NCBI GenBank assembly: GCA_020854055.1
Contig: JADZGD010000017.1
Coordinates: 1 to 64,000, forward strand
Direction of reading: 5' to 3'
From: Bryobacterales bacterium
Lineage (GTDB): Bacteria; Acidobacteriota; Terriglobia; Bryobacterales; Bryobacteraceae
Length of the DNA stretch: 64,000 bases
Part shown: positions 20,442-57,191 of the stretch, one piece after another
Layout: each line of letters begins with the position of its first letter
Position numbering within the stretch: position 1 is the stretch's first letter
The notes under the pieces: model-generated
What the model saw: the letters and a program-made list of their open reading frames with translations, nothing else
What the model was told of the DNA's origin: nothing
Database searches by the model: none
Program-made: the position numbers and the translations under genes

Positions 20442-20498
20442 ACGCGTCATCCGGCTACCGCGGACAGACTAATTGCGTATGATCGGTTGGGAGGTTTC

Positions 20499-23400: not shown

Positions 23401-23792
23401 CTCAGCCGCTTCCAATCCCAGGCCGGCCCAGGCGGCTGGGCCTGCGCGTCAAGGGCAACTCCGGATGGGGGCGTGTCACCTTCGAGGTGATCGACGCCAA
23501 GGGAGAACGCTGGACCGGTGTGGGAGGTTCCGAGGATCCCTACGGCTACGGTTTCATCAATTTCGACGGTTGGCGATGGGTGGAGGTGGATCTTCCCGGG
23601 CAGTTCCGCGATGGCTTCCCTTGGCCCATATCGAACAACTGGACGGCAACGGGCGGAGATCAGTTGGTGGATTATCCGCTGTCGCTCCAAAGCATCGTGG
23701 TGGAGATGCGGGACCACGTGGTCTACGTCAACCAGTTGGCGCCGGTGCCCTCCACCACCATTCGCTTGCAGGATCTGCGGGCCGTTTATTGA
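20499..23792 (+). CDS. Large exported protein, unrecognised, with TIM-barrel-like centre
   Basis: 1097 residues from a GTG at 20499, chosen because GGGAGG sits 4 nt upstream; a TTG 12 nt earlier is the alternative. A clean signal peptide (1-23, ending MALAADG) is followed by an N-terminal beta-sandwich-like part (to about 400), a central part (about 500-800) starting SPFGLWSWGGAHLTPPNEIE with alternating strands and helices that look like a glycosidase TIM barrel (LMRRAGARFTLGVNYP, YWQIYWEDSLSSRHN, LGAFPNFTEEFLRRGFPKQY), and a C-terminal beta domain that may bind carbohydrate. I know no family with this order. It follows the sialidase fusion by 57 nt and precedes a TonB receptor, so an extracellular glycosidase role is inference. 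Confidence 0.7.
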   Translation: MPVRIAVVLFGALAASMALAADGVVERIGVPRTAEFAVEADVRFGAAGSTVQVDAGGRLELTADTADSAIQIKASLGDKTLASETERLKPEVRKGWGDGVEQDLAREAAAMTGWRGRWFRLKVDADRSDVWFWFDGRAIAKIPRQALAAEIVIRASGEGSIRQAASEPPSRRGAFQMVDLAGYANMDGPAVRGQFTVNGIPFYATRQAVDLSKTGLRIRRQRNRHTSLFQHPFNFISAMDGDPLTSLIRVPKRYYRQAWLLCAFSDPRLSAKATLRLARYRGAAGAFFADSEFTVPGQSGAPVTIPGLEGRFWLVPVRLDPGALQDVLAADVLKAQGNPGKVLELDAGVPWMEMELTRELRPELYCMLPLGPTSGVRIYGITLEESPVRMVATTDVVGSLFETGTQPHFRVWLENNSGKPQQASLAVAWRNREGEEARKMAAVPLGAAERRTERVQLPVLAPGKYDLSFQLRDAKGQLMVQRATTFAVLPPDTRRAERDSPFGLWSWGGAHLTPPNEIEAELMRRAGARFTLGVNYPSKHKFGIGTGTDSVIGVFYTSEHVPASSPEAARAMVQTMKKRGSNPRYWQIYWEDSLSSRHNHQFPPSLTGRAPMVLNDEEEARLKSYWDRAEGYARETRRELPREKLALGAFPNFTEEFLRRGFPKQYLDALSLEVTCYRMQPERPPATDDLNGLYFIQEWKKKYGYQGLDTIMVESMFHGTAPGYVTERDQANYYVRDFLLGLAYGVKLFGMSAMITDVSDDYYRTSWGNVGLCHRAPEPSPKESYVTYATMTSMIDQAHYAGYVETGTASVYALHFVRPNGANVYAMWTTRGTRPVTVELDREAGAEVVDGMFRRSPLKGTQVELSEAPVYLATSARLKRVKPQAPVYQETPPRGAEPVIRLNTLDGWRPRPGKDALIEEGNPAYPRRPGKFEFRTVTDSSRGPVVEVSASAVDHNPLLPMYGVLDRAQPLPIPGRPRRLGLRVKGNSGWGRVTFEVIDAKGERWTGVGGSEDPYGYGFINFDGWRWVEVDLPGQFRDGFPWPISNNWTATGGDQLVDYPLSLQSIVVEMRDHVVYVNQLAPVPSTTIRLQDLRAVY

Positions 23793-23844: not shown

Positions 23845-26800
23845 GTGTGTAAAATCCTCACGTTCGGGATCCTCATGGTTCTGGTTCCGCAGCTCCGCGC
23901 GCAGTCGACCAAGGCGGAGCTATTCGGAGTAATCCGGGATCCCGCCGGCCTTCCGGCCAGCGGCACCTCGGTGAAGCTGGTCAACACCGGTACCGGGTTC
24001 ACCCGGTGCGCGCAAGCGGGCTCTGATGGCGTCTATCGCTTTCTGGCGCTGCCGCCCGGCGCCTATCGCCTGTCGGCCGATCACTTCGGGTTTGCTCCGC
24101 TTGTCAGAGAGGGCATCACGCTACGGGTGGGCGAGCGGTTGGCGCTCGACATGGCCCTGGCGATTGGCGGCTCCAGCCAGCAGATTGAGGTGACGGCCGC
24201 CGCACCGCTGCTTCAGGCGAGCCGGGGAACCGCCGGCTATAACGTGGAACAACGTAAGGTGGTGACGCTACCGCTCGATGGACGCAACTTCGTCCCGCTG
24301 GTTGCGCTGGCGCCCGGCGTAGCGCTTCCGCCGGGCAACCTGCTGCCACGCATCAATGGCAGCCGGCCGCGCGTAAGCGAGTACATTTACGACGGAGTCA
24401 GCGTCCTCCAGCCGGAGCCGGGCCAGGTGGCGTTTTATCCGATTGTGGACGCAATTGACGAATTTCGCGTGGAGACCAACAGTTTTTCGGCCGAGTACGG
24501 GCGCTCCAATGGCGGCGTAATCATGGTGAGCCAGAAATCCGGCTCCAACATCCTGCACGGAACGCTGTTCGAGTTTTTTCGCAACGAGGCATTGAACGCG
24601 CGGAACCTATTCGCCTCCACCGGCGCGAAGCCGCGCTTCCGCCGCAACCAGTATGGGTTTGTGCTGGGCGGGCCCATCCGGCACGACAAGACTTTTTTCT
24701 TTGTCGACTGGCAGCAGACGCAACTGAGCACCGGCGTGGTTCGAACCAGTACGATTCCTACTGCGGCCGAGCAGAGTGGGGTGTTTGCCGTGGCCATCTT
24801 TGACCCGGCCAGCACGCGCCGCACGGATGCGGGTTATCTGCGCGATGCCTTCCCCGGCAGCCGGATTCCGCTGGCTCGCATCGATTCAGCGGCGCGCGCC
24901 GCGGCGGGACGCTATCCGGCGCCGAATGTAGATTCGGGCGCGGGCATCGCGGCGGCGGCGAACAACTACCGGCGAACCGGCAATAACGATACGCTTTCGG
25001 ACCAGTTTGATACACGGCTCGATGAATACTTCGGCGGCCGGCACCGGTTGTTTGGACGATACTCTTTCCTGCGTGACGACAGCCATCCCACACCACCGCT
25101 TCCCGATGGCAGTGGCAACCTTACCTCAGGCGTCATCGGCAACACGCTGACGCGGGCCGACAGCCTGGCGTTGGAGCATACGGCGAATGTGACGGCGCAG
25201 TCGGTCAATCAGCTTCGCGTGGGTTATACCCGGCGCGGCTTTGGCCGGAACTCGCTTCGCACAGGCGAGGACATCGGCGCTACGGCACGGATCCCCAACC
25301 TTCCGGTGACCTCATACTCCGATGTGCTTCCCACCTACGACGTGGCGGGTTACCAGCAGTTGGGACCTCCGGCCAGCAGCAATGCGCACTTCACCACATC
25401 GGTTACGCAGGTGGTGGAGAACTATTCGTGGGTACGGGCGAGCCACAGCCTGAAGGCTGGCGCCGACATCCGCCACGAGGCACTGGACGTATTGCAGCCG
25501 CCCAGCCCCACCGGATATTTCCAGTTCACCAACATATTTACCAGCGGACTTACGCCGGCTGGCGCGGTGATGACGGGCACGGGCAACAGCTTCGCATCGT
25601 TCCTGTTGGGACAGGTGGGACAATTCCGAATCGACGCCCAGCCCCAGACTCTCAAACCACGCGCCAATATCGCCGAGTTCTTTCTTCAGGACGACTGGCG
25701 CGTAAGCAACCGCCTGAGCTTGAACCTGGGCGTTCGCTACACGCTGAACTTTCCCTCTACCGTGGAGGGGGATCGTGGGGCGGTATTTGACCTCCGCCGC
25801 GAGACGCTGGATTTCCTGGGCAACGACGGCTTTCCGCGTTCGGCCCGAGACCTCGAAAAGCTGAATTTTGCTCCCCGCCTGGGGGTGGCGTTCAAACTGA
25901 CGGATTCACTGGTGATCCGCTCCGGCTACGGGCTCACCTGGATAGAGCAGGCCGGTATCACTACTCCGTTCACCACGCCGCTGTTTCCGTTCATCCAGAC
26001 CCTGAGCGAGCAGACGCTGGACAACATCCACCCGGCCTTCACGTTGTCGGCCGGCCCCACGGTTCGGCTACAGCCTCCAAACCGCGATTCCGGACTTGGG
26101 CAGGGAGTGTTCGGCGTGCAGCGCGACAACGGCAGCGGCTATGCCCAGCAGTGGAATTTCATGCTGCAAAAGACCTTCGGCGATAACTGGACGATCGAAG
26201 GCGGGTATCTCGGCTCCAAGCTGACGCGGCTGGGGGTGCCGGATGCGAACCTGAACCAACTCACCGTGCAACAACTGGCGCTGGGCACGGCGCTTACCGA
26301 ACCAGTGGCGAATCCTTATGCCGGTGAGATTCCCGCCAACACGACGCTGGGGGCGCCCACCATCGCGAGGGCTCAATTGCTGCGCCCGTTCCCACGCTTC
26401 ACCACGGTTGCGCTGTACCGTGACAACATTGGCCACTCCACCTATCATTCCTTTCAGTCCCGGTTGGAAAAACGGTTCTCGCGCGGGCTGACGCTGACGG
26501 CTTCCTACACCTTTTCGCGATTGATCGACGATGCCGGCGCGGTGTTCGACTCTGCGATTCTGACCGGCCCGGTGGCCAACTTTCAGGCGGCGGACAGTTT
26601 CAACAAGCGGCTGGAGAAGGACGTCTCGACGGGCAACATCCCGCACGTGTTCTCGAGCGCGTTCGTTTACGAACTGCCCCGGCACTGGACGCGGGTGCGC
26701 ATCCTCAGCGGATGGCGCGCGGGGGGAATCCTGCGCGCGCAATCGGGCAGCCCAGTGGCTGTAACCCAGACGACCAACTTCAATGCCTTTGCCGGCTTCG

Positions 26801-27150
26801 GCATCCAGCGGCCCAACCGGGTGGCAAACCCGGCACTGGATCCCGCGCGGCGCAGCGTGAGCCGCTGGTTTGATACGTCGGCCTTCACCCCGGCGCGGCA
26901 GTTCACCCTGGGCAACAGTTCACGCAACCCGGTATCAGGCCCTCGATACAGCGCGCTCGATCTGATGCTGGGCAAAAGCTTCACACTCTCAGAGCGCTTG
27001 CGGGCCGAGTTTCGCGCCGAGGCGTTCAACGTGATGAACTCGCCGCCCTTGGGAAATCCCAACGGCAATTTTGGCAGCGCCGGGTTCGGCAGCATCACCA
27101 CGGCACTGGATCCGAGGGTTTTCGAGTTTGCGCTCAAGCTACAATTCTGA
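23845..27150 (+). CDS. TonB-dependent receptor, Oar-like
   Basis: 1101 residues, full length for this class. A signal peptide (about 1-20, ending RAQS) leads to a carboxypeptidase-regulatory domain (about 24-105; GVIRDPAGLPASGTSVKLV, LALPPGAYRL), then the plug (LLQASRGTAGYNVEQRKV, SAEYGRSNGGVIMVSQKSG), then a long barrel with aromatic strands and a terminal FALKLQF ending in Phe, the BAM recognition signal. GTG at 23845 is the start; an ATG at 23834 is in another frame. Substrate is unknown, but it is flanked by a glycosidase-like protein and by a regulator gene only 10 nt downstream, suggesting a regulated uptake unit. Confidence 0.93.
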   Translation: MCKILTFGILMVLVPQLRAQSTKAELFGVIRDPAGLPASGTSVKLVNTGTGFTRCAQAGSDGVYRFLALPPGAYRLSADHFGFAPLVREGITLRVGERLALDMALAIGGSSQQIEVTAAAPLLQASRGTAGYNVEQRKVVTLPLDGRNFVPLVALAPGVALPPGNLLPRINGSRPRVSEYIYDGVSVLQPEPGQVAFYPIVDAIDEFRVETNSFSAEYGRSNGGVIMVSQKSGSNILHGTLFEFFRNEALNARNLFASTGAKPRFRRNQYGFVLGGPIRHDKTFFFVDWQQTQLSTGVVRTSTIPTAAEQSGVFAVAIFDPASTRRTDAGYLRDAFPGSRIPLARIDSAARAAAGRYPAPNVDSGAGIAAAANNYRRTGNNDTLSDQFDTRLDEYFGGRHRLFGRYSFLRDDSHPTPPLPDGSGNLTSGVIGNTLTRADSLALEHTANVTAQSVNQLRVGYTRRGFGRNSLRTGEDIGATARIPNLPVTSYSDVLPTYDVAGYQQLGPPASSNAHFTTSVTQVVENYSWVRASHSLKAGADIRHEALDVLQPPSPTGYFQFTNIFTSGLTPAGAVMTGTGNSFASFLLGQVGQFRIDAQPQTLKPRANIAEFFLQDDWRVSNRLSLNLGVRYTLNFPSTVEGDRGAVFDLRRETLDFLGNDGFPRSARDLEKLNFAPRLGVAFKLTDSLVIRSGYGLTWIEQAGITTPFTTPLFPFIQTLSEQTLDNIHPAFTLSAGPTVRLQPPNRDSGLGQGVFGVQRDNGSGYAQQWNFMLQKTFGDNWTIEGGYLGSKLTRLGVPDANLNQLTVQQLALGTALTEPVANPYAGEIPANTTLGAPTIARAQLLRPFPRFTTVALYRDNIGHSTYHSFQSRLEKRFSRGLTLTASYTFSRLIDDAGAVFDSAILTGPVANFQAADSFNKRLEKDVSTGNIPHVFSSAFVYELPRHWTRVRILSGWRAGGILRAQSGSPVAVTQTTNFNAFAGFGIQRPNRVANPALDPARRSVSRWFDTSAFTPARQFTLGNSSRNPVSGPRYSALDLMLGKSFTLSERLRAEFRAEAFNVMNSPPLGNPNGNFGSAGFGSITTALDPRVFEFALKLQF

Positions 27151-44524: not shown

Positions 44525-45829
44525 CTACGCTTCCAGCTTCCAGGGAGCCCGATACTGCCGGTAGAGGAACGGCCGGGCTTCCGGTTGCGCCACCGTCTGT
44601 GTCTGCTCGTTCCAATCCAGACGGGTTTTCGCGCGGTAGGAAACATTTCCCAACACGCAGCTTTCCGACGACCGGACGCACGTCTCGATATCGCTGTTCG
44701 GACGTTTCCGCGTGCGCACACAATCGACGAAGTTGGTCCAGTGCAGTGGGTGCGGATCCGCCACGCGCTTCATCTCGGACTCCTCCAGGCCGCTGCCTTG
44801 CTCCGGCGTTACATGATATAGGTTGCGATCCACGTACAAAGTGCCCCGTGTGCCGTGGAACGTAATTCCCATCAGCCGCGCCTTGGTTCCTCCGGTATTG
44901 TTACAGCGATGCTCCCAGGATCCGAGGAAGTCCGAATAGTCGAACGAGATCTGTAGTGTATCGGGAGTCTCCTCGTCGTCTTTGAGCCAGTACTTGCCGC
45001 CGAGCGCGCTGATCGTCTTGGGCATCGCCTCGCCAAAGGCCATCTGCACGATATCCAGCATGTGGATGCCGGAGTCTGTCACATGGCCACCGGCATAATC
45101 CCAGAAATAACGGAAGTAGGAATACGCCTTCGGATACACGCCGAAACGGTTGGGGTTGAATTCACGCTTTGGCGCCGGACCCAGCCACAGGTCCCAGTCG
45201 AGACCGGCGGGGGGCTTTCCATCCGGTGGATTTCCGATTCCGGCCTGCGGCATGTTGTTGTAGATCCACGTTCGCACGAAGGCGATCTTGCCCAGTTCGC
45301 CGGATCGAACCAGTTCGCAGGCTTTCTGGAAGTGCGCGCCGGAACGCTGCCAGGTTCCCGCCTGAACCACGCGGTTGTACTTTCTGGCGGCGGTGATCAT
45401 CGCCTGGCCTTCGTTCAGCGAAAGGCAGACCGGCTTTTCGACGTACACGTCCTTGCCTGCCTTGCATGCTTCCACGGTGATGTAAGGATGCCAGTGGTCC
45501 GGAGTCGAGATGCATACGACGTCGATCGACTTGTCGGCAAGGATTTCACGGAAATCCCTCACCTCTTTAGGTTGATGACCGGCACGCCGGGCGATCGCCG
45601 CCGCGCGCTCCAGGTTCGGCTGGTAAACGTCGCAAACCGCCGCCGCCTGTACCCCCGGTTGCTCCATGGCAGCCTTCAGGTTCTCGCTGCCCATCACGCC
45701 AACGCCAACAAACGCAGCCGCAATCTTGTCGTTAGCGCCTTTGAGGTTGCCGGTGAATAATGACGTGGTGAGCGCGGTTGCACCCGAAGTCTTTAGAAAT
45801 CCACGCCGGTCTATCGACTGGTTGGTCAT
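44525..45829 (-). CDS. Gfo/Idh/MocA oxidoreductase, Tat-exported
   Basis: 434 residues from ATG 45829, preferred over an upstream in-frame ATG at 45874 because GAGGGAAGG precedes it and a clean Tat signal (DRRGFLKTSGATALTTSLFTG) then starts the protein. Rossmann motif AAFVGVGVMG, catalytic VEKPVCLSLNEG (EKP) and C-terminal domain WDLWLGPAPKREFNPNRFG. Oxidises a sugar with NAD(P). It diverges from the GH20-like gene, and a palindrome GTTATG/CATAAC lies upstream at 45881-45897. Confidence 0.9.
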   Translation of the reverse strand: MTNQSIDRRGFLKTSGATALTTSLFTGNLKGANDKIAAAFVGVGVMGSENLKAAMEQPGVQAAAVCDVYQPNLERAAAIARRAGHQPKEVRDFREILADKSIDVVCISTPDHWHPYITVEACKAGKDVYVEKPVCLSLNEGQAMITAARKYNRVVQAGTWQRSGAHFQKACELVRSGELGKIAFVRTWIYNNMPQAGIGNPPDGKPPAGLDWDLWLGPAPKREFNPNRFGVYPKAYSYFRYFWDYAGGHVTDSGIHMLDIVQMAFGEAMPKTISALGGKYWLKDDEETPDTLQISFDYSDFLGSWEHRCNNTGGTKARLMGITFHGTRGTLYVDRNLYHVTPEQGSGLEESEMKRVADPHPLHWTNFVDCVRTRKRPNSDIETCVRSSESCVLGNVSYRAKTRLDWNEQTQTVAQPEARPFLYRQYRAPWKLEA

Positions 45830-45880
45830 CACTTTCCTTCCCTCGACCGAAACTGCTTTGCTTTCGATTTCCATCCGAAC

Positions 45881-45897
45881 GTTATGCGTATCATAAC
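45881..45897. promoter_or_regulatory. Palindromic operator candidate between divergent genes
   Basis: GTTATG and CATAAC are perfect 6-bp arms around CGTAT, 52 bp upstream of the Gfo/Idh start and about 90 bp upstream of the GH20-like start. On the minus strand it overlaps TATGAT, a possible -10 box. Binding by a dimeric regulator is inference. Confidence 0.4.
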
Positions 45898-45987
45898 AAT
45901 AAATCCTGGAATCTAGCGCATTGGCTTCCCTTTTCTTGCGTTTTCTGCGTTATACTGCCCATTCGAGGAGGAGTCTCCCAGACATCC

Positions 45988-48198
45988 ATGCGTTCGGTGA
46001 TACTGCTTGTTCTCACATCCTGTCTGGCCGCCGCTCAGACTGTGACCCCGTTGTGGTCGCGCGGATATTCCATTATTCCCGCGCCACGCACGGTTCAACT
46101 GCAAACGGGCGACGTGTTGCTCGATTCCACCTGGAGTCTGGCCGATCAATCGTCGTCGCCCATCGCGGCGAGATCGCTCATCAAGGACTTCGAAGACTTC
46201 CATGGAATCACCCTACGCCGTTCCGGCGGCGCCAAGGTGATTCAGCTTGCCATCGCACCTGGTACGGTACACACCGGAGCCGGTCCGGATCTGGATGCTC
46301 AGGCCTATCGTTTACGGGTGGACGGCAACCGGATCGAGGTCATCGGCAACGCTGCCGCCGGACTGTTCTACGGAGTGCAGAGCCTGATCCAACTGCCGCG
46401 CCGCGTCGGTGTAGGGCGGTTGCTGGTCCCCAAGGTCACCATCGAGGATTGGCCCCGGCTCCAGTTGCGTTTTCTTCACTGGGACACCAAGCACCACCAG
46501 AACCGGATGGAGACTCTGAAGCGTTACTTGGATTGGTCGGCCCGCTTCAAAGTCAACATGATCGGTTTCGAGTTGGAAGACAAGTTCCAATATCCGTCGA
46601 ATCCCGAAATTGGCGCTCCCGGCGCTTACACTCCGGCCGAGTTGCAGGAGCTGGTCAACTACGGCCTGGAGCGCCACATCCAGATTGTGCCGGTCATTCA
46701 GGCGCCGGCGCACCTGGCCTACGTGCTGAAGCACCCCAAGTTCGCAGACCTCCGCGCCGACGGCAGCAACTACCAGAGCGCGCTGTGCGACCCCCGTACC
46801 TACGACCTGATCTTCTCCATGTACGACGACGTGATCCGGGCCACCAAGGGTGTCAAGTATTTATTTGCCTCTACCGACGAGGTTTACTATGCGGGCATCG
46901 AGGGCACCTGCCGTCCTTACAACGATGAAAATCGCAGCCTCGCCTGGCTGGAGTTCGTCAAGCGGGCCCGCGACCACGTCGCACGTCAGGGCCGCCGCAT
47001 GCTGGTTTGGGACGAGTACCCGCTGCTCACCAAACATGTCGAGCAGCTTCCGCCCGACGTGATCGCCGGCGTAATCGGCGAACCCGAATATCTTCCCATC
47101 GAGAATCGCCTGGGCATGAACCAATTGGCCTACGTCTCGATGCAGGGATCGGAGTTGCTGTTTCCGGACAACCTCATCAACGGCGCCAGGCGCCCGGGCG
47201 GCAGTGGGCGAAGCCGTCTAGCCACTGCGTTCGACTCCATCGCGCACGGGCGTCACTGGCAAGGCAAGCCGATTGGCGCCTTCGGAGCCGCCTGGGATGA
47301 TTCCGGCCTGCACGACGAGACTTTCTGGCTTGGCTGGTCCGCCGTGGCTCAGTGGGCGTGGAATCCGGGAACCGTCACCCCGGCGCAGCATACGGCTGAG
47401 TTCATGCGTCTCTATTACGGACCGGACGCCACGGAAATGATCTCCATCTATCGCGCCATGGAACAGCAGGCGCGCTCCTGGCAGATCACTTGGGAGAGCA
47501 TCGTCTCGCGTGTACGCGGACCCGGTTATGGAAACTCTTATGGCAAAGGCGTGGGAACCGAGCGCGACGACCTGACGCTCTCGCCGCCCCCTCTGCCCCG
47601 TCTGCCAGACCTCGCGATCACCCCGTCGATCGCAGGAAAATACACCCGCTTTCTCCAGGAAGCGAGAACTCGCGGGCCGGAGAACGACCAACTTCTGCTG
47701 GCGCTCAATGACCGGATCGGAAGAGTGGATCGCAACCAGTACAACCTGGAAGTCTTTCTGGCGCTGGCCGAGTTCATGGGACACCACTGGCGCCTGCTCG
47801 ACGCGCTGGCCGGTGCCGAACAGGCTCTGATTGAGGCGCATTCGGCCGCGGGCGGCAACAAAGCCGAAAAGGCCGTGGACCGGCTGGTGGCGGCTTACAG
47901 CGCCATCGACCGGCAGCAAAAAGAGGGCGAGCAGATCTTCGCCAACCTGACCGCCGTCTTCGAAAAGAGCCGCTATCCGAAAGGCCGTTCCGTGGCCGGC
48001 CGCAAGTTTGTCCACGTGCTGGACGACGTCAAGGACCACTTTGCCGACCGCACCGCGGATCTGAGTTACATGATGATGCCGGAACGGGAGATCGGCCTTG
48101 ATCAGTGGCTGAAGACTCTCTACGGAACCATTCAGCAGTATGCGCGCGAGCACAACGTGCCGGTGCGCGGCATCGGTCCGGCCCGCCTGGAGGAATAG
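45988..48198 (+). CDS. GH20-like exported beta-N-acetylhexosaminidase
   Basis: 736 residues from ATG 45988 with a short signal peptide (to AAAQ, residue 17). The N-terminal GH20b-like domain (about 25-130, IIPAPRTVQLQTG) is followed by a TIM barrel: LHWDTKHHQNRMETLKRYLDW, MIGFELEDKF, VPVIQAPAHLAY and FASTDEVYYAG, with the Asp297-Glu298 pair at the GH20 catalytic site. The canonical HxGGDE motif is reduced to STDE, so it is a divergent branch. A helical region of about 200 residues ends the protein. A likely -10 box TATACT is at 45951-45956. It removes terminal GlcNAc or GalNAc from glycans outside the cell. Confidence 0.75.
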   Translation: MRSVILLVLTSCLAAAQTVTPLWSRGYSIIPAPRTVQLQTGDVLLDSTWSLADQSSSPIAARSLIKDFEDFHGITLRRSGGAKVIQLAIAPGTVHTGAGPDLDAQAYRLRVDGNRIEVIGNAAAGLFYGVQSLIQLPRRVGVGRLLVPKVTIEDWPRLQLRFLHWDTKHHQNRMETLKRYLDWSARFKVNMIGFELEDKFQYPSNPEIGAPGAYTPAELQELVNYGLERHIQIVPVIQAPAHLAYVLKHPKFADLRADGSNYQSALCDPRTYDLIFSMYDDVIRATKGVKYLFASTDEVYYAGIEGTCRPYNDENRSLAWLEFVKRARDHVARQGRRMLVWDEYPLLTKHVEQLPPDVIAGVIGEPEYLPIENRLGMNQLAYVSMQGSELLFPDNLINGARRPGGSGRSRLATAFDSIAHGRHWQGKPIGAFGAAWDDSGLHDETFWLGWSAVAQWAWNPGTVTPAQHTAEFMRLYYGPDATEMISIYRAMEQQARSWQITWESIVSRVRGPGYGNSYGKGVGTERDDLTLSPPPLPRLPDLAITPSIAGKYTRFLQEARTRGPENDQLLLALNDRIGRVDRNQYNLEVFLALAEFMGHHWRLLDALAGAEQALIEAHSAAGGNKAEKAVDRLVAAYSAIDRQQKEGEQIFANLTAVFEKSRYPKGRSVAGRKFVHVLDDVKDHFADRTADLSYMMMPEREIGLDQWLKTLYGTIQQYAREHNVPVRGIGPARLEE

Positions 48199-48219
48199 CT
48201 TCGGGACGCGGGCGAGCCC

Positions 48220-50064
48220 TCAGCGGGCGTTCAGCAATTCGCCCAGCTCGATCCGCGTCCGATCCCACTCATCGGGATCGTTCCTCCACACTTCGATATC
48301 GCGCATTGCGGTAACGCCGAACGGGCGTTTGTACACGATGCGGTTTACCGCGGCGTTGGCTTCCTCCCGCTTGCCGCGCTTTTCAGCCAGCAGCCAGAAG
48401 TACTCGTAATCCTGCAATCCACGCCGCTGCGCTTTCAGGCGAACGCTGGCGATCGGCTCGCGGTAGCCCATCACCGCGCCCCGGTAGATCAACTGGCCGG
48501 AGCCGTTGTAGACGCGGTGGTTGTCCTTGAAGTTCTCCGGCTCGTACCAGGCTGCGTAGGCGTTCCAATCGAACTCCCACTCCACCCAGCCGGCCTGATA
48601 CTTCCAGCCCACCCAGCCGATACCGCGGTTCACCAGCAGGTCCAGGTCAGTGAAAGTGTTCGACCCGCAGCCCGAGTTCTTCTTCTGTTCGTAGATCATC
48701 GGCCCGTAGAACCACGTCTCAACGCCCGCCTTTCGCAGCCGCGGCACCAGACCAGGATCGAACGAGACGGTGTGGCAGACCCACAGTTGCACTTCGCGGC
48801 TCAACTTCTCCATCGCTTCGGGCGTGTATCCGCCGTCGATGCGGTAGGAGAACCAGTCGCGCCCCATCGCGTCGTGCAGCAGTTTGCCATAGTAAACCAT
48901 CTTCTCGTACGCTTCTTCGGAATAGGACTCATCCAGCCCGTCGAGAAACGCGATCTTGCGGACTTTATGCCATAGCGGATTGGCGTCCAGGTGCGCGCGC
49001 ACCTGCCGTGCTACCCCCGTCCACAGCGCTTCGTAAGCAGCCGTGCGTCCCTGGGCCGGCAGCGCGGCGGGCCAAGCCGTGCCTTTACGGCCGTGTTTTT
49101 CCACGTTGAATGGCAGCATCATGTGATCGAGCGGCAAGCCGTAGCCCGGGCCCCAGTAGCCATACTTTTCGGTAAACGCCGAGCCATCCAGATAGCGGGT
49201 GAGCCTGCTGTCAAACTCCGTCCAATCAAGCAGGGCCTTGCCGCCATCGAGTGTCAGTTTGGGGCGATAGGCATAGACCAGCGGCACAAAGCGGTGCCGT
49301 CTCGCCATCTGGTAATACGCCAGTTCTTCTTCCGGCGGCATCTGTTTCATCGATCCGTTCCAGATATCGCCCGGAAGGTGACTCTCTTCGGGAAGCGCAA
49401 AGTCCCACACATTGACGGCGACACGCACAGAGGTTTGCCCGCTCTTCCACGTCACCGTCAACTCGCCGCTGTATTCACCCGGTGGCGCCGCATGGCGCTC
49501 CGCCGGGATATAGACATCAATCCAAATCGCCTGGTTCGTTTGGCGTGGAATGTTGTTGTAGAGATCGGGGATAGAGAAGGGAACACCCGGCGCAAGGCTG
49601 TCGCGGCGAAACGGCAGCAGGGCATCGGGATACCACGCCGGGCCGAGAGAGCTTGCTTCGTAGCCGGTGGAGGCGCGCCGTACCGGGATGTACCACTCTT
49701 TCAGAAGCGCAATGTGCTTGCCGCCGATTTCCAGGCCATTGTGATTCCGCAGCGCGTTCAGATGCACATTCACCCCATCGAGCGGCGTTGTCGTTTCGAT
49801 GATTGCCTGCGCGGCTACAAACTCATTCCGCGCGGCTTTCAGCCGGATTGTCCGCGTGGCCGGGTCCCACGCCAGGTTCCCGCGGCGGAAGCCGGTGACC
49901 GGATAGTCCTTATGAATGTCGGGCCGCGATTCCAACACCCTTCCGCTTACCGGTTCCACGCGCACGCCATCGCTGACGGCCCATATGCCAACCCCGGCGC
50001 GGCAAATGCACGTGCTGAGCAGCCAGAACAGGAATGCACTCAGGGATACTATTCTGTAGGGCAT
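48220..50064 (-). CDS. Exported DUF4091 / glycoside-hydrolase-domain protein
   Basis: 614 residues from ATG 50064, chosen because a signal peptide (MPYRIVSLSAFLFWLLSTCICRAG) starts there; upstream ATGs lie in the neighbouring gene's region. The C-terminal DUF4091 domain is marked by GQLIYRGAVMGYREPIASVRLKAQRRGLQDYEYFWLL. The middle has a TIM-barrel-like pattern with KIAFLDGLDESYSEEAYEKM and TVSFDPGLVPRLRKAGVETWFYGP. It is thought to hydrolyse glycans, but activity is unproven. The TACAAT stretch 11 nt upstream (50081-50076) gives an almost leaderless transcript. It diverges from the heparinase-like gene with only 22 bp between starts. Confidence 0.75.
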   Translation of the reverse strand: MPYRIVSLSAFLFWLLSTCICRAGVGIWAVSDGVRVEPVSGRVLESRPDIHKDYPVTGFRRGNLAWDPATRTIRLKAARNEFVAAQAIIETTTPLDGVNVHLNALRNHNGLEIGGKHIALLKEWYIPVRRASTGYEASSLGPAWYPDALLPFRRDSLAPGVPFSIPDLYNNIPRQTNQAIWIDVYIPAERHAAPPGEYSGELTVTWKSGQTSVRVAVNVWDFALPEESHLPGDIWNGSMKQMPPEEELAYYQMARRHRFVPLVYAYRPKLTLDGGKALLDWTEFDSRLTRYLDGSAFTEKYGYWGPGYGLPLDHMMLPFNVEKHGRKGTAWPAALPAQGRTAAYEALWTGVARQVRAHLDANPLWHKVRKIAFLDGLDESYSEEAYEKMVYYGKLLHDAMGRDWFSYRIDGGYTPEAMEKLSREVQLWVCHTVSFDPGLVPRLRKAGVETWFYGPMIYEQKKNSGCGSNTFTDLDLLVNRGIGWVGWKYQAGWVEWEFDWNAYAAWYEPENFKDNHRVYNGSGQLIYRGAVMGYREPIASVRLKAQRRGLQDYEYFWLLAEKRGKREEANAAVNRIVYKRPFGVTAMRDIEVWRNDPDEWDRTRIELGELLNAR

Positions 50065-50086
50065 AATCCATCGGAATTGTACTCGA

Positions 50087-51940
50087 ATGAGCATCCGGAA
50101 AAAACACTCTTCGCGCCGCGCATTTTTGCAAACATCATTAGCAGGCGCCACCGTTGCTTTACCCGGTGTGGCTACGGCGGCTCCGGTGAGGACCGATGGC
50201 GCTGCGATTGAAGCGGAGATTCACCGTCGCGCCGCATGGCACCGCGCCCAGCGTCGCCTTGTTGTCGATTACTACCGTATCCGCCGCACGCTCGCTTACC
50301 CGCTGCCGGCGCGAAGCCTGGCGATTCCCGGCATGGCTGTTCCTTCGATCAGCGAATATCCGTGGCCAATTTGGATGTCGTGGGCTCTCGAAGAACGTAT
50401 CTACTCACTGGCATGGTCCACCGAGTGGAAACCGGACGAGCAACTCACCACGCTGGTTACCCGGGATCTCACTGCGCTGACAGCGTTTCCACGCTACTGC
50501 CAACTGGATCGTCCGGACCTCACTTCGGCCCACTGCGCGCGGCTGATGTGGACGGCGTACCACCGCTGGAAGTTGGTGGACGGCGCAGTGAAGGAGACGA
50601 TTCAAGCGGCCTGCGCCCGCCACGTGGAGGAGCTGACGCCTCTTTACGAAAAGCATTACCAGACGGTTCATTCCAAAGCCGACCTGGAGCCACTGGCCGC
50701 CAACTTCTCCAAGCTTCACAACATTCCGCTGATCGGCACCATCGGCGCCGCGCTCAGTGCCAGCGTGATCAATCACCCCGGCGCGGCGGAGATCAACCGG
50801 ATCATCGGCATCATTTTTCAAGGTATTCTCGATGCCCGTGCCTCGGGTTACAGCGAGGGCGTGGGTTACGACGGCTATGTGCTCGACTTCATCGCCGACT
50901 GGTTATCTATACTCCCGGCGCCGGAGCGTGACCGGTTTCTCAACCACCCTCACTTCGACGATTGCCTCGAAGAGTCCTACCGTCTGTCTGTTCCGGGAGC
51001 CATGGAACAGGTGGCCGAACTCGGCGATGTCGAGCCGCGTGAAATGCCGTTTCATCAGGCTGCCCAAGTGAAGCTGGCCCGCTGGCGGCCAACCCCTCTG
51101 CGCGGCTGGTTCCTCGGTAACTGGCCACCCGCCCGCATGCGCGCCGATGCCCTCGGCAATCTCCGTGACCGGATCGATCGCCTGCCGCGGGATGCCCCAA
51201 ACGAACCGGCAGCCAACGCTCACTACGCCGTTGTCCTGCGCTCCGGCTGGCAGCATTCCGATCTGGCGGCCGCCATGTCCGCGACCAACTCGCCCACCGC
51301 CCATCTGCCGCCCGATAATGGCACCCTGGTGATCGGCTCGGCCGGTAAATGGATCCTTGCCGACCCGGGCTACGAACAGTACATGCAGGATGAGGAGCGT
51401 GTTTTCACCCTCGGCCCCGCCGCCCACAATTACCCGCTCATCAACGGACGCCAGCAGACCTCAAAGAAGCCGAAACTGGTGCGGCTCGACGCTCCCTCTT
51501 CGGATTTGTGCCGGGCAACGATCGATCTGGCGGCCTGCTATCCCGCGCCCCTCAACAGCCGGACGATCAGCCGTCATCTGTGGCGGGCCGGGAACCGTTG
51601 TGTGCTGGTTGCCGACCAGTTGGACCTGGAATCTCCAGCAAGGGTCGTGTACCACTGGCACGGTCATCCGGAAGCCGCATGGTGGTCGGACTCCGGCCAA
51701 CTGCTGCTCAGTGTGGATAACGCCGATCTGTGGTTTGCTTCGCCCGGGAAGCCGCTCGAGCTGGCTGCCGTCAGCCGCCTCGCCGGTTCTCGGGGCCAGC
51801 TCACCGCGATTGCCGCCTTCGATCCGGCGCCGGCCGTTATCTGGTGGGTCTTCTCGCTTGGCCGGCCTGTGCCGCAGGTGGCGGCACAAGACTCCGCCCG
51901 GGCGCTTACACTTGAGGGCCGGACCTTCTCGATCGATTAG
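50087..51940 (+). CDS. Heparinase II/III-like protein, Tat-exported
   Basis: 617 residues. The N-terminus RKKHSSRRAFLQTSLAGATVALPGVATA is a twin-arginine signal. An all-helical toroid-like region (about 50-380; GIIFQGILDARASGYSEGVGYDGYVLDF) precedes a beta-sandwich region (about 400-610) with TAHLPPDNGTLVIGSAGKWILADPGYEQYM and AAHNYPLINGR, as in the C-terminal domain of heparinase II/III-type lyases. It cleaves or binds uronate-containing polysaccharides if active. It starts 22 bp from the divergent DUF4091 gene and is followed 12 bp later by a canonical heparinase II/III gene, suggesting a lyase pair. Confidence 0.75.
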   Translation: MSIRKKHSSRRAFLQTSLAGATVALPGVATAAPVRTDGAAIEAEIHRRAAWHRAQRRLVVDYYRIRRTLAYPLPARSLAIPGMAVPSISEYPWPIWMSWALEERIYSLAWSTEWKPDEQLTTLVTRDLTALTAFPRYCQLDRPDLTSAHCARLMWTAYHRWKLVDGAVKETIQAACARHVEELTPLYEKHYQTVHSKADLEPLAANFSKLHNIPLIGTIGAALSASVINHPGAAEINRIIGIIFQGILDARASGYSEGVGYDGYVLDFIADWLSILPAPERDRFLNHPHFDDCLEESYRLSVPGAMEQVAELGDVEPREMPFHQAAQVKLARWRPTPLRGWFLGNWPPARMRADALGNLRDRIDRLPRDAPNEPAANAHYAVVLRSGWQHSDLAAAMSATNSPTAHLPPDNGTLVIGSAGKWILADPGYEQYMQDEERVFTLGPAAHNYPLINGRQQTSKKPKLVRLDAPSSDLCRATIDLAACYPAPLNSRTISRHLWRAGNRCVLVADQLDLESPARVVYHWHGHPEAAWWSDSGQLLLSVDNADLWFASPGKPLELAAVSRLAGSRGQLTAIAAFDPAPAVIWWVFSLGRPVPQVAAQDSARALTLEGRTFSID

Positions 51941-51952
51941 CGGAAATTTACG

Positions 51953-54241
51953 ATGAGACTCTTACTTCTGAGCGCGCTGCTCTGGCATACACTACCGGCC
52001 GCCGTCTCGCCGCTGCATCCCCGAATCTACGTACGAAACGACAATGCCACCATCGGGAAAGCAATCACCGTGCGGCAACTGCGGATGCGTGCTGCCGATC
52101 CGGCATTTGAACGCTGGCGGCGTCCGGTGAAGCTGAATAATGCCTCCGCCGCGGTAGAGATAGCCGCTCGCTATCTGGAACAAGGGCAACCCGCGGATCT
52201 GGCGGCCGTCCGCGACTTCCTGCTTTCGCGAAGTTACTCGTTCGAGAGGAACGATGTCGGTGGCCTGATGGCGGGAGGCGAGATGATGACCGCCTATGAC
52301 TGGATCTACAACGGCCTCACGCCCGAGGAGCGTTCCACTCTGGCTGGGAACCTGGTCAAGACCTGTGCCGCCTCCCGCCGGTTTATCGAGCACGGAGGCC
52401 CCGACGTGAACCACAACTACGTTTATATGGCGTTAACCACTGTGGCTACCGCGGGTCTGGTGCTTACGGGAGAGCCCGAGCCCTACGGTTCGGTTGGCCG
52501 CGAGTATCTGAAACTCGCCACGGACTGGCTGGAGGAGCCCGGCCGCATTCTCGACACCTGGCAGGCGCGGCAGGGCGCGTGGGGCGAGGGTAGCCATTAC
52601 ACTTTCCACGAGACTCTACGGAACCTGGTGTTAACGCTGTCGGCTTTCCGCAGCGCCTCGAGCAAGGACTACTATCCGCTGATTCACCGATCCTACGGCG
52701 ACTTCATGAAACAAGCGGGGTGTTTTCTCATCGGCAGCACGCGGCCTGACCTTACCTTCATCCGTACCGGCGACACGCAGGCCAATCGCGCCACCGCCAA
52801 CCTCACCGTTCCGCTCACCGTCGAGATGATCGCCGATGGTCTGGATGATCCCGTGGCCACGCCGCAACTTCACGCTTTCGCCAACGACCTGATCACGGCC
52901 TACGGCCCCACCGCGGTCCATCCTTTATACAACTGGGGCATGCGCCTGTTTTGGAGTCCGGATGAGCCGCGCGAGCCGTCCTACCGTGAGTTGCCCACGT
53001 TTCTCCGCTTTGGCGCCGGAACGCTGGAGCAATTCATGATTCGCGGCGGCTGGAGCGGCTCCAGCACCTACATCGCGATCCTTGGGGGCAATCAGTTCAC
53101 CGATCATCAGCACTTTGACAAGGGACAGTTTCTGATCTTCCACCGCGGTGGACTCGCCATCGACAGCGGGGCGTACGACGCCATGTACAAGCCCGGCAGG
53201 CATGCCAACGAGTACGCACCGCGCACCGTGGCGCACAACGCGCTGCTGGTTTACGATCCACAGGAACAATTGCCGCCGGGCTACACCAACGACGGCGGCC
53301 AGCGCATCATTCGTAACGCGCAGCATCACGGAACGTGGCCGGAGTACGTGGCTCACCGTGAAGCCGAAGGTCTGGATGCGGGGCGCGTCACCGCCGCCGA
53401 TGCGGCTCACAATTATGTGCGTCTCGATCTGACTCACGCCTACTCAAGAAAAGTCACCTCCTACCAGCGCATCTTCGTCTATCTGCCGCAGCCGGACGCG
53501 CTCGTGGTCTACGACCGGCTCACCAGCGCAAAGCCTTTTCAGAAGCGCTGGCTGCTGCACATGCAGACAGCACCGCAAATCGATGGCGCCCAACCGGCTC
53601 CTGGGATTCAGTCCCACCCAGGCGCCCGCTGGGTGGTGGTCCATGAAAAGGGTTCGTATGAGCGGGGAGGAACCGCCGCCGTCTACGACGGAGCGCTGTT
53701 TGCCGAGACGCTTCTGCCGGGCCGCCGCGACATCATTAGCACGGGTGGGCCAGGCTACGAGTTCTACAGCACCTTTGCCGGACACAACTACCCGGTATCG
53801 AATCCGAAAGCTGCCGCTGCACCACGTGAATCCGGTGAGTGGCGCATCGAAGTCTCGCCCGCCGATCCTTCCACCGAAGACCGGTTCTTGAACATTCTCC
53901 ACATGGCAGAAGGTGGAGCCGCTCAACCAGCCCCTTCGATCCTGATCAAAGACCCGTCAGACCGCGTCATCGGGGCCGCAGTTGTAACGCCTACTGAGGA
54001 CTACATCGTGCTGTGCGCCCGGGCAGTAGGCAACAGGGATCTTACCCTGCCTGTCGAGTACGCCGTTACCACCGGCAAACAGGCCATCCACACGCTTACG
54101 GAACTTCCGCCATCGGCGGACGTCGCGGTCGTAGTGAACGGCAAAGTGATGACGAGAACCCGCGTCAACGCAAATGGAGTGCTCAGTTTCAGGGATCCCC
54201 AGCCAGGCCGCCGCCGGATTCGCATCCGCCCACTGTTCTAA
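51953..54241 (+). CDS. Heparinase II/III family lyase, exported
   Basis: 762 residues with a signal peptide (about 1-20, LLLLSALLWHTLPAAVS). An alpha/alpha toroid (about 60-360; EMMTAYDWIYNGLTPEE, GEGSHYTFHETLRNLVL, PDVNHNYVYMALTTVATAG) is followed by the heparinase II/III-like domain: GGNQFTDHQHFDKGQFLIFHRGGLAIDSGAYD, TVAHNALLVYDP and SYQRIFVYLPQPDALVVYDR. The family eliminates uronic acid linkages in heparin, heparan or alginate-like chains. Its TAA stop shares bases with the TAG of the convergent GH27-like gene (54238-54241). Confidence 0.88.
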   Translation: MRLLLLSALLWHTLPAAVSPLHPRIYVRNDNATIGKAITVRQLRMRAADPAFERWRRPVKLNNASAAVEIAARYLEQGQPADLAAVRDFLLSRSYSFERNDVGGLMAGGEMMTAYDWIYNGLTPEERSTLAGNLVKTCAASRRFIEHGGPDVNHNYVYMALTTVATAGLVLTGEPEPYGSVGREYLKLATDWLEEPGRILDTWQARQGAWGEGSHYTFHETLRNLVLTLSAFRSASSKDYYPLIHRSYGDFMKQAGCFLIGSTRPDLTFIRTGDTQANRATANLTVPLTVEMIADGLDDPVATPQLHAFANDLITAYGPTAVHPLYNWGMRLFWSPDEPREPSYRELPTFLRFGAGTLEQFMIRGGWSGSSTYIAILGGNQFTDHQHFDKGQFLIFHRGGLAIDSGAYDAMYKPGRHANEYAPRTVAHNALLVYDPQEQLPPGYTNDGGQRIIRNAQHHGTWPEYVAHREAEGLDAGRVTAADAAHNYVRLDLTHAYSRKVTSYQRIFVYLPQPDALVVYDRLTSAKPFQKRWLLHMQTAPQIDGAQPAPGIQSHPGARWVVVHEKGSYERGGTAAVYDGALFAETLLPGRRDIISTGGPGYEFYSTFAGHNYPVSNPKAAAAPRESGEWRIEVSPADPSTEDRFLNILHMAEGGAAQPAPSILIKDPSDRVIGAAVVTPTEDYIVLCARAVGNRDLTLPVEYAVTTGKQAIHTLTELPPSADVAVVVNGKVMTRTRVNANGVLSFRDPQPGRRRIRIRPLF

Positions 54242-55422
54242 CGGTCCAGGCGCAGCAGGACGACGCCGTGCGGCTCCACGGCCGCTGAATATCCGTCTTC
54301 CATGCGCCCCAGGTTCTTGTGCTTCCAGACGTCGCGCACCCGCGGCGTGTATGGCAACTCCAGAGATTCCCACGAGACCTTTACCACCGCCGTATCCTCA
54401 CCGCGGTTGAAGAGTCCCACGGCGTAGCTGTAAGTGGACAGCGGACGCGCCCATACCTCGCGGTTCTGCCACCGGTCGATCTTTCTCCCGGCGCGTCCCG
54501 CGGCATCCTGGTGGATGGCGATCACTTCCGGCTCGGCGATAATTTCCCGCACCCCGGCGGGCAGGCTGCGCACATCGTCGCCGAGCAGGATGGGAGACGC
54601 CATCAGCGCGCGCAGGCTCATCCCGGCGCGGCACTCCTTCAAACTGAGCCCGGCGGCGCACTGCATCGTGTCCAACTCATTCCAGTGTCCCGGAGCCGAT
54701 GCCCGGTCGAGCCCGATCGGTAGATCGAATTCCGCGCTAAGCGCCGTCCAGGATCCGTCCAGTTCGGGTCCCACCCGCCAGCAGTTTGCGCCCGAGGATG
54801 CCGCCCACAGTTCGGGATTGCGCACCCCGCGCGGCGTCAGGCTGAAGAGAAATGGTCTCCCGGTGGCGTGCAGTGCCTCGGCCATCTTCCTCGCGCCGGC
54901 GCTTACCTGCTTTGCAGACTGCAACCTGCCCGAACACCACTCGTAGCGCAGATAATCCACCCCCCAGGCCGCAAATTGACGCGCGTCGTTGTCCTCATGT
55001 CCGGCACTGCCTTCGGCGCTGCCGCAAGCCGTGTCCTCTCCGGAGGCCGCCAGCCCGAATCCGAGCCCCAGCCGGTGCAGATACTCTCCGACTGCCTTGA
55101 GATCTTCAAATCCCGCCTTGCCAGTCAGGTTGCCTTGAGGGTTCCGGCGGCCCTGCCATCCGGCGTCCACCAGAACGTAGCGATAGCCGGCATCGCGGAG
55201 GCCGGTGTTAACCAGCGCGTCGCCGATCTGGCGCACCGCGGCGGCATCGATCCTTGAGCCGAAGTGCTTACCGCTGGCCCATCCCATCGGCGGGGTCGCT
55301 GCCAGTCCATTGGCCGGGAGCGGGATAGCCGCCGGTTCGCCAGCGGACGAGTCTGACGAGAAAATGAAGGGGCCACACGCAAGCAATCCCGCAAGAAGCG
55401 CCCGAGCACCTGAACTCCGCAA
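54238..55422 (-). CDS. GH27-like protein, exported, catalytic Asp replaced by Glu
   Basis: 394 residues from a TTG at 55422, chosen because GGGAGG sits 6 nt upstream and a signal peptide (ARALLAGLLACGPFIFSSDSSAG) then starts the protein; a longer ATG frame to 55536 lacks a ribosome site. The TIM barrel is GH27-like: LAATPPMGWASGKHFG, YRYVLVDAGW, GLGFGLAASGEDTACG and a C-terminal beta domain. Against the GH27 consensus, Glu161 in YLRYEWC replaces the nucleophile Asp of KYDWC, Glu220 in RVGPELDGSW replaces the acid/base Asp, and Glu249 in HWNELDTM replaces the first Asp of NDPDM. It may be a pseudo-enzyme or use Glu chemistry. The acid/base alignment is by eye. Confidence 0.75.
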   Translation of the reverse strand: MRSSGARALLAGLLACGPFIFSSDSSAGEPAAIPLPANGLAATPPMGWASGKHFGSRIDAAAVRQIGDALVNTGLRDAGYRYVLVDAGWQGRRNPQGNLTGKAGFEDLKAVGEYLHRLGLGFGLAASGEDTACGSAEGSAGHEDNDARQFAAWGVDYLRYEWCSGRLQSAKQVSAGARKMAEALHATGRPFLFSLTPRGVRNPELWAASSGANCWRVGPELDGSWTALSAEFDLPIGLDRASAPGHWNELDTMQCAAGLSLKECRAGMSLRALMASPILLGDDVRSLPAGVREIIAEPEVIAIHQDAAGRAGRKIDRWQNREVWARPLSTYSYAVGLFNRGEDTAVVKVSWESLELPYTPRVRDVWKHKNLGRMEDGYSAAVEPHGVVLLRLDR

Positions 55423-55547
55423 CCGTTTCCTCCCTGTAAATGCTATTTTTATCCGACGTTCTCCGGCCCGCAACCCGTTACATTCGCGTTGGATAAACCG
55501 GGTTAGCCGGTTCGTGGCGTGCTGTTTGGCATACAATCGGAGATCAA

Positions 55548-57191
55548 ATGCGGAACATCGCCAGATTCAAGGTTGGTGCGATTCGGGTGGCCGGCCTGGC
55601 CATTCTGGCCTGGGCGGTCTACATGGTAGCGGATCCGGCGCCGGACGCCACTCTCGAAGTGCAAATCGTGGACCAGTCCTCTGGCCAACCGGTGCCGGCC
55701 ATGGTCTGCCTTACGTCGCTCGCCGACGGACTGTGGCGTACGCCCCCCGACGGGCATGTCTCCCCGCCCTATTCCACCACCCGTGACTTCTATGACCCCA
55801 AGCCGTGGAAACCGGGGGAAATCGGCCCCGTGCGCGTTACCAACGGCGAGTACCACAACAATGAAATCCGTTCGACCAGCTTTCAGGGAGGACCAGCGAC
55901 TCCGTTCTGGAAAGAGCCGGCCGCCTACTTCGTCTCCCGTCCATTTCGCATCAGGCTCGTTCCGGGAAAGTGGCGCTTGGCGGTGGCTCGCGGCATCGAG
56001 TTCCTGCCGGTTTTTGAAGAGTTCACCCTGGCGCCCGGCGAGACGCGGAACCGCAAGGTTGTCATGAAGCGCTGGGTGGATATGCCATCCAAGGGCTGGT
56101 ATTCCGGCGACGGACACGTTCATTTCCCTCGCCTCACTCCGGAACAGGATGAATTTCTGCTGACCTGGGCCCACGCCGAAGATGTGCACGTGGTAAACGT
56201 TCTTCGGATGGGTGACGCCCGGGCCACTTACTTCGAACAAAAGGGTTACGGCAAGGACTTTCGTAAACAGAGCGGTGATTACGTTCTGGTCACCGGCCAG
56301 GAGGATCCGCGCGACCGCCTCGGCCACACCATCGCCTGGAACATCACCGCTCCCATTCGTGACACCTCACGCTACCTCGTCTATGACACGATGTTCGACG
56401 GCGCGCACGCGCAGGGAGCGCTCACCGGCTGGGCTCACGTTTCCTGGGATTCACCCGGGATGCCGATCGACTTGATTCGCAATAAGGTCGATTTTTGTGA
56501 GATCCTTCAATTCCGCCGCCTGGGCCTGGATCCGTATTACCGGTTTCTGAACCTGGACCGGCGACTGGCCGCCGCAGCCGGGTCCGACCTGCCTTGGGGC
56601 AACAGCATGGGCGAAGTCCGTATGTATGCCTACACCGGCCGGACGTTCTCCGCCGACGCCTGGTTCGATGCGGTGAAGCGTGGCCGCACGTTTGTCAGCA
56701 ACGGCCCGATGCTCGAGTTCACCGTGAACGGAGAGATGCCCGGCGCTCAACTGGAACCGCGGAAAAACGGACCGCTGCGTATTCGCGCGCGCGCCTGGGC
56801 GCCCGAGGCTACTGGCACTCCACAGCGCCTGGAGGTCGTCTCTAACGGAGCGGTGATCCGTTCGGTTGAGGCCAAGCGTGCCGGAGAGCGGCAGTTGCGC
56901 CTGGATTTCACCACACGCGCCGACTCCAGCCAGTGGATCGCCGCCCGTGTCACTACCACCACCGAGGGCCTGGCTCATTCATCGCCCGTATTCGTTCTTC
57001 CCGGGGGGCAGCACTTCTGGAACCGCCCGGATTTACCGGCCGCCGTCGAGCGGCAGTTGAAGACGCTCGATAACCTGGAGACCAAACTCGCTGCCATGAA
57101 TGACCGCTCTCCGATTGGCGAGCTTGCCATTGTGCGTGAGCGAATCGGCGCGGCCAGAGAGGCCTACCGCCGCCTGCTCCAAGAGCGCTGA
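55548..57191 (+). CDS. CehA/McbA-family metallohydrolase, membrane-anchored
   Basis: 547 residues. Residues 1-28 (VGAIRVAGLAILAWAVYMV) act as signal or membrane anchor. A beta-sandwich N-terminal part (about 35-175) is followed by a PHP-like metal-binding domain beginning KGWYSGDGHVHFPRLT, whose HxH and preceding Asp are typical metal ligands, with YVLVTGQEDPRDRLGHTIAWN. CehA/McbA enzymes cut carbamates or phosphate esters; here a glycan-related ester is equally plausible. The ATG has GGAG 6 nt upstream and TACAAT (55532-55537) 10 nt upstream, so the 5' leader is very short. A PfkB gene follows after 17 nt. Confidence 0.8.
   Translation: MRNIARFKVGAIRVAGLAILAWAVYMVADPAPDATLEVQIVDQSSGQPVPAMVCLTSLADGLWRTPPDGHVSPPYSTTRDFYDPKPWKPGEIGPVRVTNGEYHNNEIRSTSFQGGPATPFWKEPAAYFVSRPFRIRLVPGKWRLAVARGIEFLPVFEEFTLAPGETRNRKVVMKRWVDMPSKGWYSGDGHVHFPRLTPEQDEFLLTWAHAEDVHVVNVLRMGDARATYFEQKGYGKDFRKQSGDYVLVTGQEDPRDRLGHTIAWNITAPIRDTSRYLVYDTMFDGAHAQGALTGWAHVSWDSPGMPIDLIRNKVDFCEILQFRRLGLDPYYRFLNLDRRLAAAAGSDLPWGNSMGEVRMYAYTGRTFSADAWFDAVKRGRTFVSNGPMLEFTVNGEMPGAQLEPRKNGPLRIRARAWAPEATGTPQRLEVVSNGAVIRSVEAKRAGERQLRLDFTTRADSSQWIAARVTTTTEGLAHSSPVFVLPGGQHFWNRPDLPAAVERQLKTLDNLETKLAAMNDRSPIGELAIVRERIGAAREAYRRLLQER

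Follow-up and report, generated by a model that had tools for sequence, protein, structure and literature searches.

The window analysed here is a 64,000-nucleotide stretch of the genome of a Bryobacterales bacterium (positions 1 to 64,000 of contig JADZGD010000017.1, assembly GCA_020854055.1). This genome, the sole one of its genus in the examined set, is a draft comprising 159 contigs with 2.4% contamination. The window carries a gene encoding a GH27-fold protein (hereafter the query), whose residues are numbered from the TTG codon at position 55422, and the features of the locus are as follows:

51953-54241, plus strand: heparinase II-like lyase of 762 amino acids (PF07940; heparinase II structures matched at E=3.5e-33), convergent with the GH27-like gene and overlapping its stop codon by 4 nt.
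54238-55422, minus strand: GH27-fold protein of 394 amino acids, with a TTG start at 55422 and a stop codon at 54240-54238.
54676-54678, minus strand: codon of E249, at the position of rice Asp214, which is conserved and non-catalytic.
54763-54765, minus strand: codon of E220, aligned with the acid/base position, rice Asp185.
54940-54942, minus strand: codon of E161, which falls on the catalytic nucleophile, rice Asp130 (alignment to 1UAS and to homologues).
55354-55422, minus strand: putative N-terminal signal peptide (MRSSGARALLAGLLAC...), recognised by eye from the translation.
55429-55434, minus strand: Shine-Dalgarno-like GGGAGG, separated from the TTG at 55422 by a 6-nt spacer (the minus strand reads ...tttacaGGGAGGaaacggTTG).
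55548-57191, plus strand: CehA/McbA-family metallohydrolase (NCBIfam NF038032, E=3.7e-52), divergent from the GH27-like gene.

The reading frame contains no internal stop across its 394 codons, and its GC3 value (0.76) falls within the range of the adjoining genes (0.72-0.78). Judged by eye, the signal peptide may be of the lipoprotein type, with its end at Cys16. The gene runs opposite to its neighbours on either side and shows no clear sign of belonging to an operon; a scan for a promoter and a terminator of this gene found nothing.

Two adjoining heparinase II/III-like lyases, of 617 and 762 amino acids, occupy positions 50087-54241 of the window, and the 617-residue lyase is 49% identical to a paralogue encoded at another place in this genome (G000 C113), while the bacterial family contains few relatives of it. 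Adjoining the lyases, at 45778-50151, lie a GH20-like protein (plus strand) and then a convergent GH123-like protein (minus strand), the latter being closest to the oligosaccharide-releasing beta-N-acetylgalactosaminidase 8k2f. Together, the GH20-like and GH123-like proteins and the lyases may form a hexosamine-uronate degradation cluster. Also near the GH27-like gene are a rhamnosidase-like protein, several Gfo/Idh/MocA oxidoreductases, a PfkB kinase and a TonB-type receptor (23845-27150), which is immediately preceded by an ORF of equal length (1101 amino acids, 20487-23792) that matches no Pfam family at E<=1e-5. As a whole, the neighbourhood suggests the degradation of a polysaccharide rich in amino sugars or uronates.

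The GH27 membership of the query is supported by both its sequence and its predicted structure. The ORF matches the Pfam families PF16499 (Melibiase_2; E=1.2e-36, 127 bits for a cut-off of 23) and PF17801 (Melibiase_C; E=2.6e-18, 66 bits for a cut-off of 22.9), so that both the family profile and the C-terminal beta-sandwich are present, and in an HMMER comparison with the PDB, GH27 enzymes of known structure were matched with E values as low as 1.8e-66. The AlphaFold2 model (65 homologues in the input) has a mean pLDDT of 91 and a pTM of 0.88, its only low-confidence part being residues 1-23. When this model was compared with the PDB using Foldseek, the top matches were all GH27 proteins, with TM-scores of 0.86 for 6f4c and 0.85 for 1uas.

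GH27 enzymes use a retaining mechanism with two Asp residues. The original prediction was that the query carries Glu at three catalytic Asp positions, in the segments RYEWC (E161), PELDGSW (E220) and NELDTM (E249). All three segments are indeed present in the ORF, and the claim holds for E161 and E220, but not for E249, from the following lines of evidence, which include an alignment with 131 homologues, whose sources were the bacterial family and the phylum of the query as well as two Bacteroidota genomes. First, when aligned by HMMER, the query shows no gaps relative to 1UAS and 6f4c across either catalytic segment, and E161 falls on rice Asp130, a column occupied by Asp in 130 of the 131 homologues and by Val in the remaining one. 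Second, E220, which had been assigned to the acid/base position by eye, falls on rice Asp185 (Asp in 129/131 homologues, Asn in two), and is anchored on both sides, by R216 (Arg181) four residues before and by W225 (Trp190) five residues after. Third, E249 corresponds to Asp214, which is Asp in 131/131 homologues without being catalytic, while the ligand residue of this motif, Asp216, persists as D251. Since the Asp130 and Asp185 columns are so uniformly occupied by Asp, the Glu residues of the query are no quirk of alignment, and Glu at both positions occurs in the query alone. The placement of another Asp at a catalytic point was also considered, e.g. D222 on Asp185; it is ruled out by the R216/W225 anchoring, as it would need a gap between these two residues that the solved-structure alignments do not support.

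The catalytic acids were not changed in isolation. In 1UAS numbering, the pocket changes are W16G, D52A, Y93A, K128R, D130E, C162T, E163P, W164R, D185E and M217T, whereas D51, C101, R181 and D216 are kept, and so are the disulphide cysteines, C133 and C163 of the query corresponding to rice Cys101 and Cys132. Hence, of the six residues that we take to be the galactose-binding set of GH27 (W16, D51, D52, K128, R181 and D216), three are retained and three replaced. As judged from the aligned residues, the -1 subsite is rebuilt or lost as a whole. Thus, by sequence and predicted structure, the query is a GH27-fold protein lacking each catalytic feature looked for: the Asp nucleophile at the end of strand 4 (E161 instead), the Asp acid/base in the WRxxxD segment (E220 instead) and a complete galactose-binding set. 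This combination of a glycoside hydrolase fold with loss of the catalytic residues of the family is shared with pseudoglycosidases.

These replacements are part of a larger divergence. Among the 87 near-invariant positions (conserved in >=95% of the homologues), 32 are lost in the query, as compared to 18 in the runner-up, L002, which is the second GH27 protein of the same genome and has a complete catalytic set, and to a median of one over the 131 homologues. The losses affect 18/31 positions in active-site motifs versus 14/56 elsewhere (p=0.002), and 7/11 strict ligand residues versus 25/76 other positions (p=0.05), both p values being descriptive because we picked the motif set ourselves. 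In the maximum-likelihood tree, the query has no resolved position among the sequences of the bacterial family, and its tip branch measures 2.35 changes per site, for a median of 0.14.

The proposal that the Asp-to-Glu changes are coordinated gained no statistical support. At consensus-Asp columns, Glu is the commonest kind of replacement in the other homologues (53/201, i.e. 26%), and against this background the query has Glu in four of its ten losses at such columns (p=0.26), in both members of the catalytic pair (p=0.07) and in three of the four active-site Asp residues (p=0.06). The Glu residues can therefore be explained by drift at Asp sites, and the case for a coordinated Asp-to-Glu chemistry is weak. 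Nevertheless, the charges retained at K128R, R181, D51 and D216 would be compatible with a lining of acidic and basic residues having been conserved.

As far as is known, the Glu form is a single sequence from one species. The YL[KR]YEWC motif had no other case in 237 genomes of the bacterial family, and the exact peptides DYLRYEWC and HWNELDTM, searched over 84,980 species genomes, from which the window's own record was possibly excluded, returned only two ordinary GH27 genes. A loose Glu-form pattern, applied to 399 genomes of the class, gave a match count comparable to that of a reversed control, and in 15 of the resulting stretches that were inspected the motif lay in five reading frames, none of them GH27-like. 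The nearest homologues are 40-45% identical to the query and have complete catalytic residues, and in four other genomes the orthologues of the adjoining heparinase-like gene have no GH27 gene alongside. Because neither the Glu motif nor a heparinase-linked GH27 gene was found in the other genomes searched, we regard the gene as a lineage-specific paralogue or acquisition. A literature search for Glu-form GH27 proteins or GH27 pseudoenzymes found no direct report.

From these data we propose, with the balance tipping just barely in favour of this reading, that the query is a lineage-specific, putatively secreted GH27-fold pseudoglycosidase engaged in non-catalytic glycan binding. The original prediction had offered either a new chemistry or a sugar-binding pseudo-enzyme. 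The second option is the better supported, since the whole -1 subsite was rebuilt or lost, beyond the two acids; the first is less so, though the type of charge was kept. With its catalytic pair and most of its -1 subsite replaced, the query is very probably no working retaining alpha-galactosidase, and, judging from its residues, sugar binding is a more probable activity for it than the cleavage of galactosides. An ordinary bacterial alpha-galactosidase would have given rise to it by fast, lineage-specific divergence, yielding a single-copy, secreted and possibly membrane-anchored protein. The replacement of W16, Y93, W164 and M217 (1UAS numbering) by Gly, Ala, Arg and Thr, respectively, would, from the identities of these residues, have widened the barrel opening, and the retained charges D86, R159, E161, R216, E220 and D251 (query numbering) may line this opening and hold a glycan, perhaps serving the surrounding uptake and degradation cluster. 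What counts against the pseudoglycosidase is that a carboxylate stands at both catalytic positions and that K128 became Arg, as if charge mattered.

The same features underlie the next reading, a somewhat unlikely one, in which the query is an active glycosidase with a Glu/Glu pair, either retaining with a shifted sugar or inverting, that acts on a substrate other than an alpha-galactoside in an enlarged pocket. In addition to the two carboxylates, the K128R change and the conservation of D51, R181 and D216, it is worth noting that some GH32 proteins with Glu at the position of the Asp nucleophile are active (PMC1249566), and that in GH97 rice Asp185 has its structural counterpart in the acid Glu532, and a shifted base Glu leads to inversion (PMC2670981). 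However, W16, D52, Y93, C162, E163, W164 and M217 are also lost in the query, drift at Asp sites most commonly yields Glu, and the extra Glu of the inverting GH97 enzyme is on another strand, GH97 having also a calcium site. Furthermore, two Asp-to-Glu changes make both acids longer and narrow the gap between them, whereas inversion needs a wider one, the carboxylates being typically about 9-10 A apart in inversion and about 5-6.5 A apart in retention. A more specific version, in which such a Glu/Glu enzyme cleaves a glycan other than a galactoside, perhaps an acidic one in view of the heparinase-like neighbours and of the arginines R159, R198 and R216, which lie within the pocket or close to it, appears improbable.

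The GH27 paralogues of this bacterial family do lose catalytic residues and decay. In the genus g18, a GH27 paralogue (L080, L092 and L109, each 1-1128) has the changes W16R, D185N and M217L, which were confirmed column by column in L080 and L092. Its dN/dS is 0.18-0.26, as compared to 0.03-0.06 for the intact paralogue with which it shares these genomes. Of the three copies of the altered gene, one, L109, carries an in-frame stop codon; by its sequence, this gene is an independent GH27 pseudoenzyme or a decaying gene. Similarly to the query, the g18 paralogues are GH27 proteins of this family that have lost the acid/base residue, but they keep the nucleophile Asp and most of the pocket, have Asn rather than Glu, and sit on an independent branch. 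A separate GH27 homologue (L027:1501-2583) has Val in place of Asp130 (MKYVWC), the other catalytic and pocket residues that were checked being intact, and is either a natural nucleophile-less GH27 or a sequencing error.

Decay of the g18 kind, together with the very long tip branch, the many conserved residues lost and the retention of a second, catalytically complete GH27 gene (L002) in the genome, is consistent with the query being a redundant paralogue under recently relaxed constraint, drifting to loss and without present function. We consider this unlikely, as the 394-codon frame, the Shine-Dalgarno-like sequence, a plausible signal peptide, the C-terminal domain, the cysteines and a high-confidence predicted fold are all in place, and the losses cluster in active-site motifs rather than being evenly spread. 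The intact frame, ribosome site, putative signal peptide, cysteines and predicted fold likewise argue against a long-dead gene, and such a divergence, far greater than that of the g18 paralogue, without any stop codon seems difficult to square with long neutrality; we infer that the query is still made and selected. Lastly, a sequencing or assembly artefact, which the draft state of the genome might suggest, is scarcely credible, given that the query differs from its nearest relative at about 57% of residues without any interruption of the frame, and that its codon-position composition is like that of its neighbours.

Automatic pipelines would label the query an alpha-galactosidase. Since the catalytic Asp pair is near-invariant, natural GH27 folds without it are useful annotation controls. 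The query shares the barrel and C-terminal beta-sandwich of the GH27 alpha-galactosidases from rice (1UAS, E=2e-63) and Nicotiana (6f4c, E=2e-66), and keeps the Asp51, Arg181, Asp216 and Cys101/Cys132 positions of the rice enzyme, but it differs from these enzymes in having Glu for both catalytic Asp and in the replacement of W16, D52, Y93, K128, C162, E163, W164 and M217. If it were active, the query would depart from the Asp/Asp rule that holds for clan GH-D. In this respect, the GH97 fold overlays that of GH27, and displacement of the base Glu by about 1.6 A results in an inverting mechanism (PMC2670981). The inverting alpha-glucosidase BtGH97a resembles the query by its related barrel and by Glu532, which occupies the Asp185 site as E220 does, but it has Glu on other strands and calcium (PMC2670981), and the Pfam matches of the query at E<=0.001 include no GH97 profile.

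Pseudoglycosidases with retained glycan binding form a recognised group of proteins (PMC7828330). Klotho, YKL-39 and CyRPA are similar to the query in combining a glycoside hydrolase fold with lost catalytic residues; glycan binding is kept in known cases (PMC7828330), whereas in the query it is proposed. Klotho, YKL-39 and CyRPA belong to the families GH1, GH18 and GH33 (PMC7828330), unlike the query, which, if the binding proposal is true, would be a glycan-binding protein derived from GH27.
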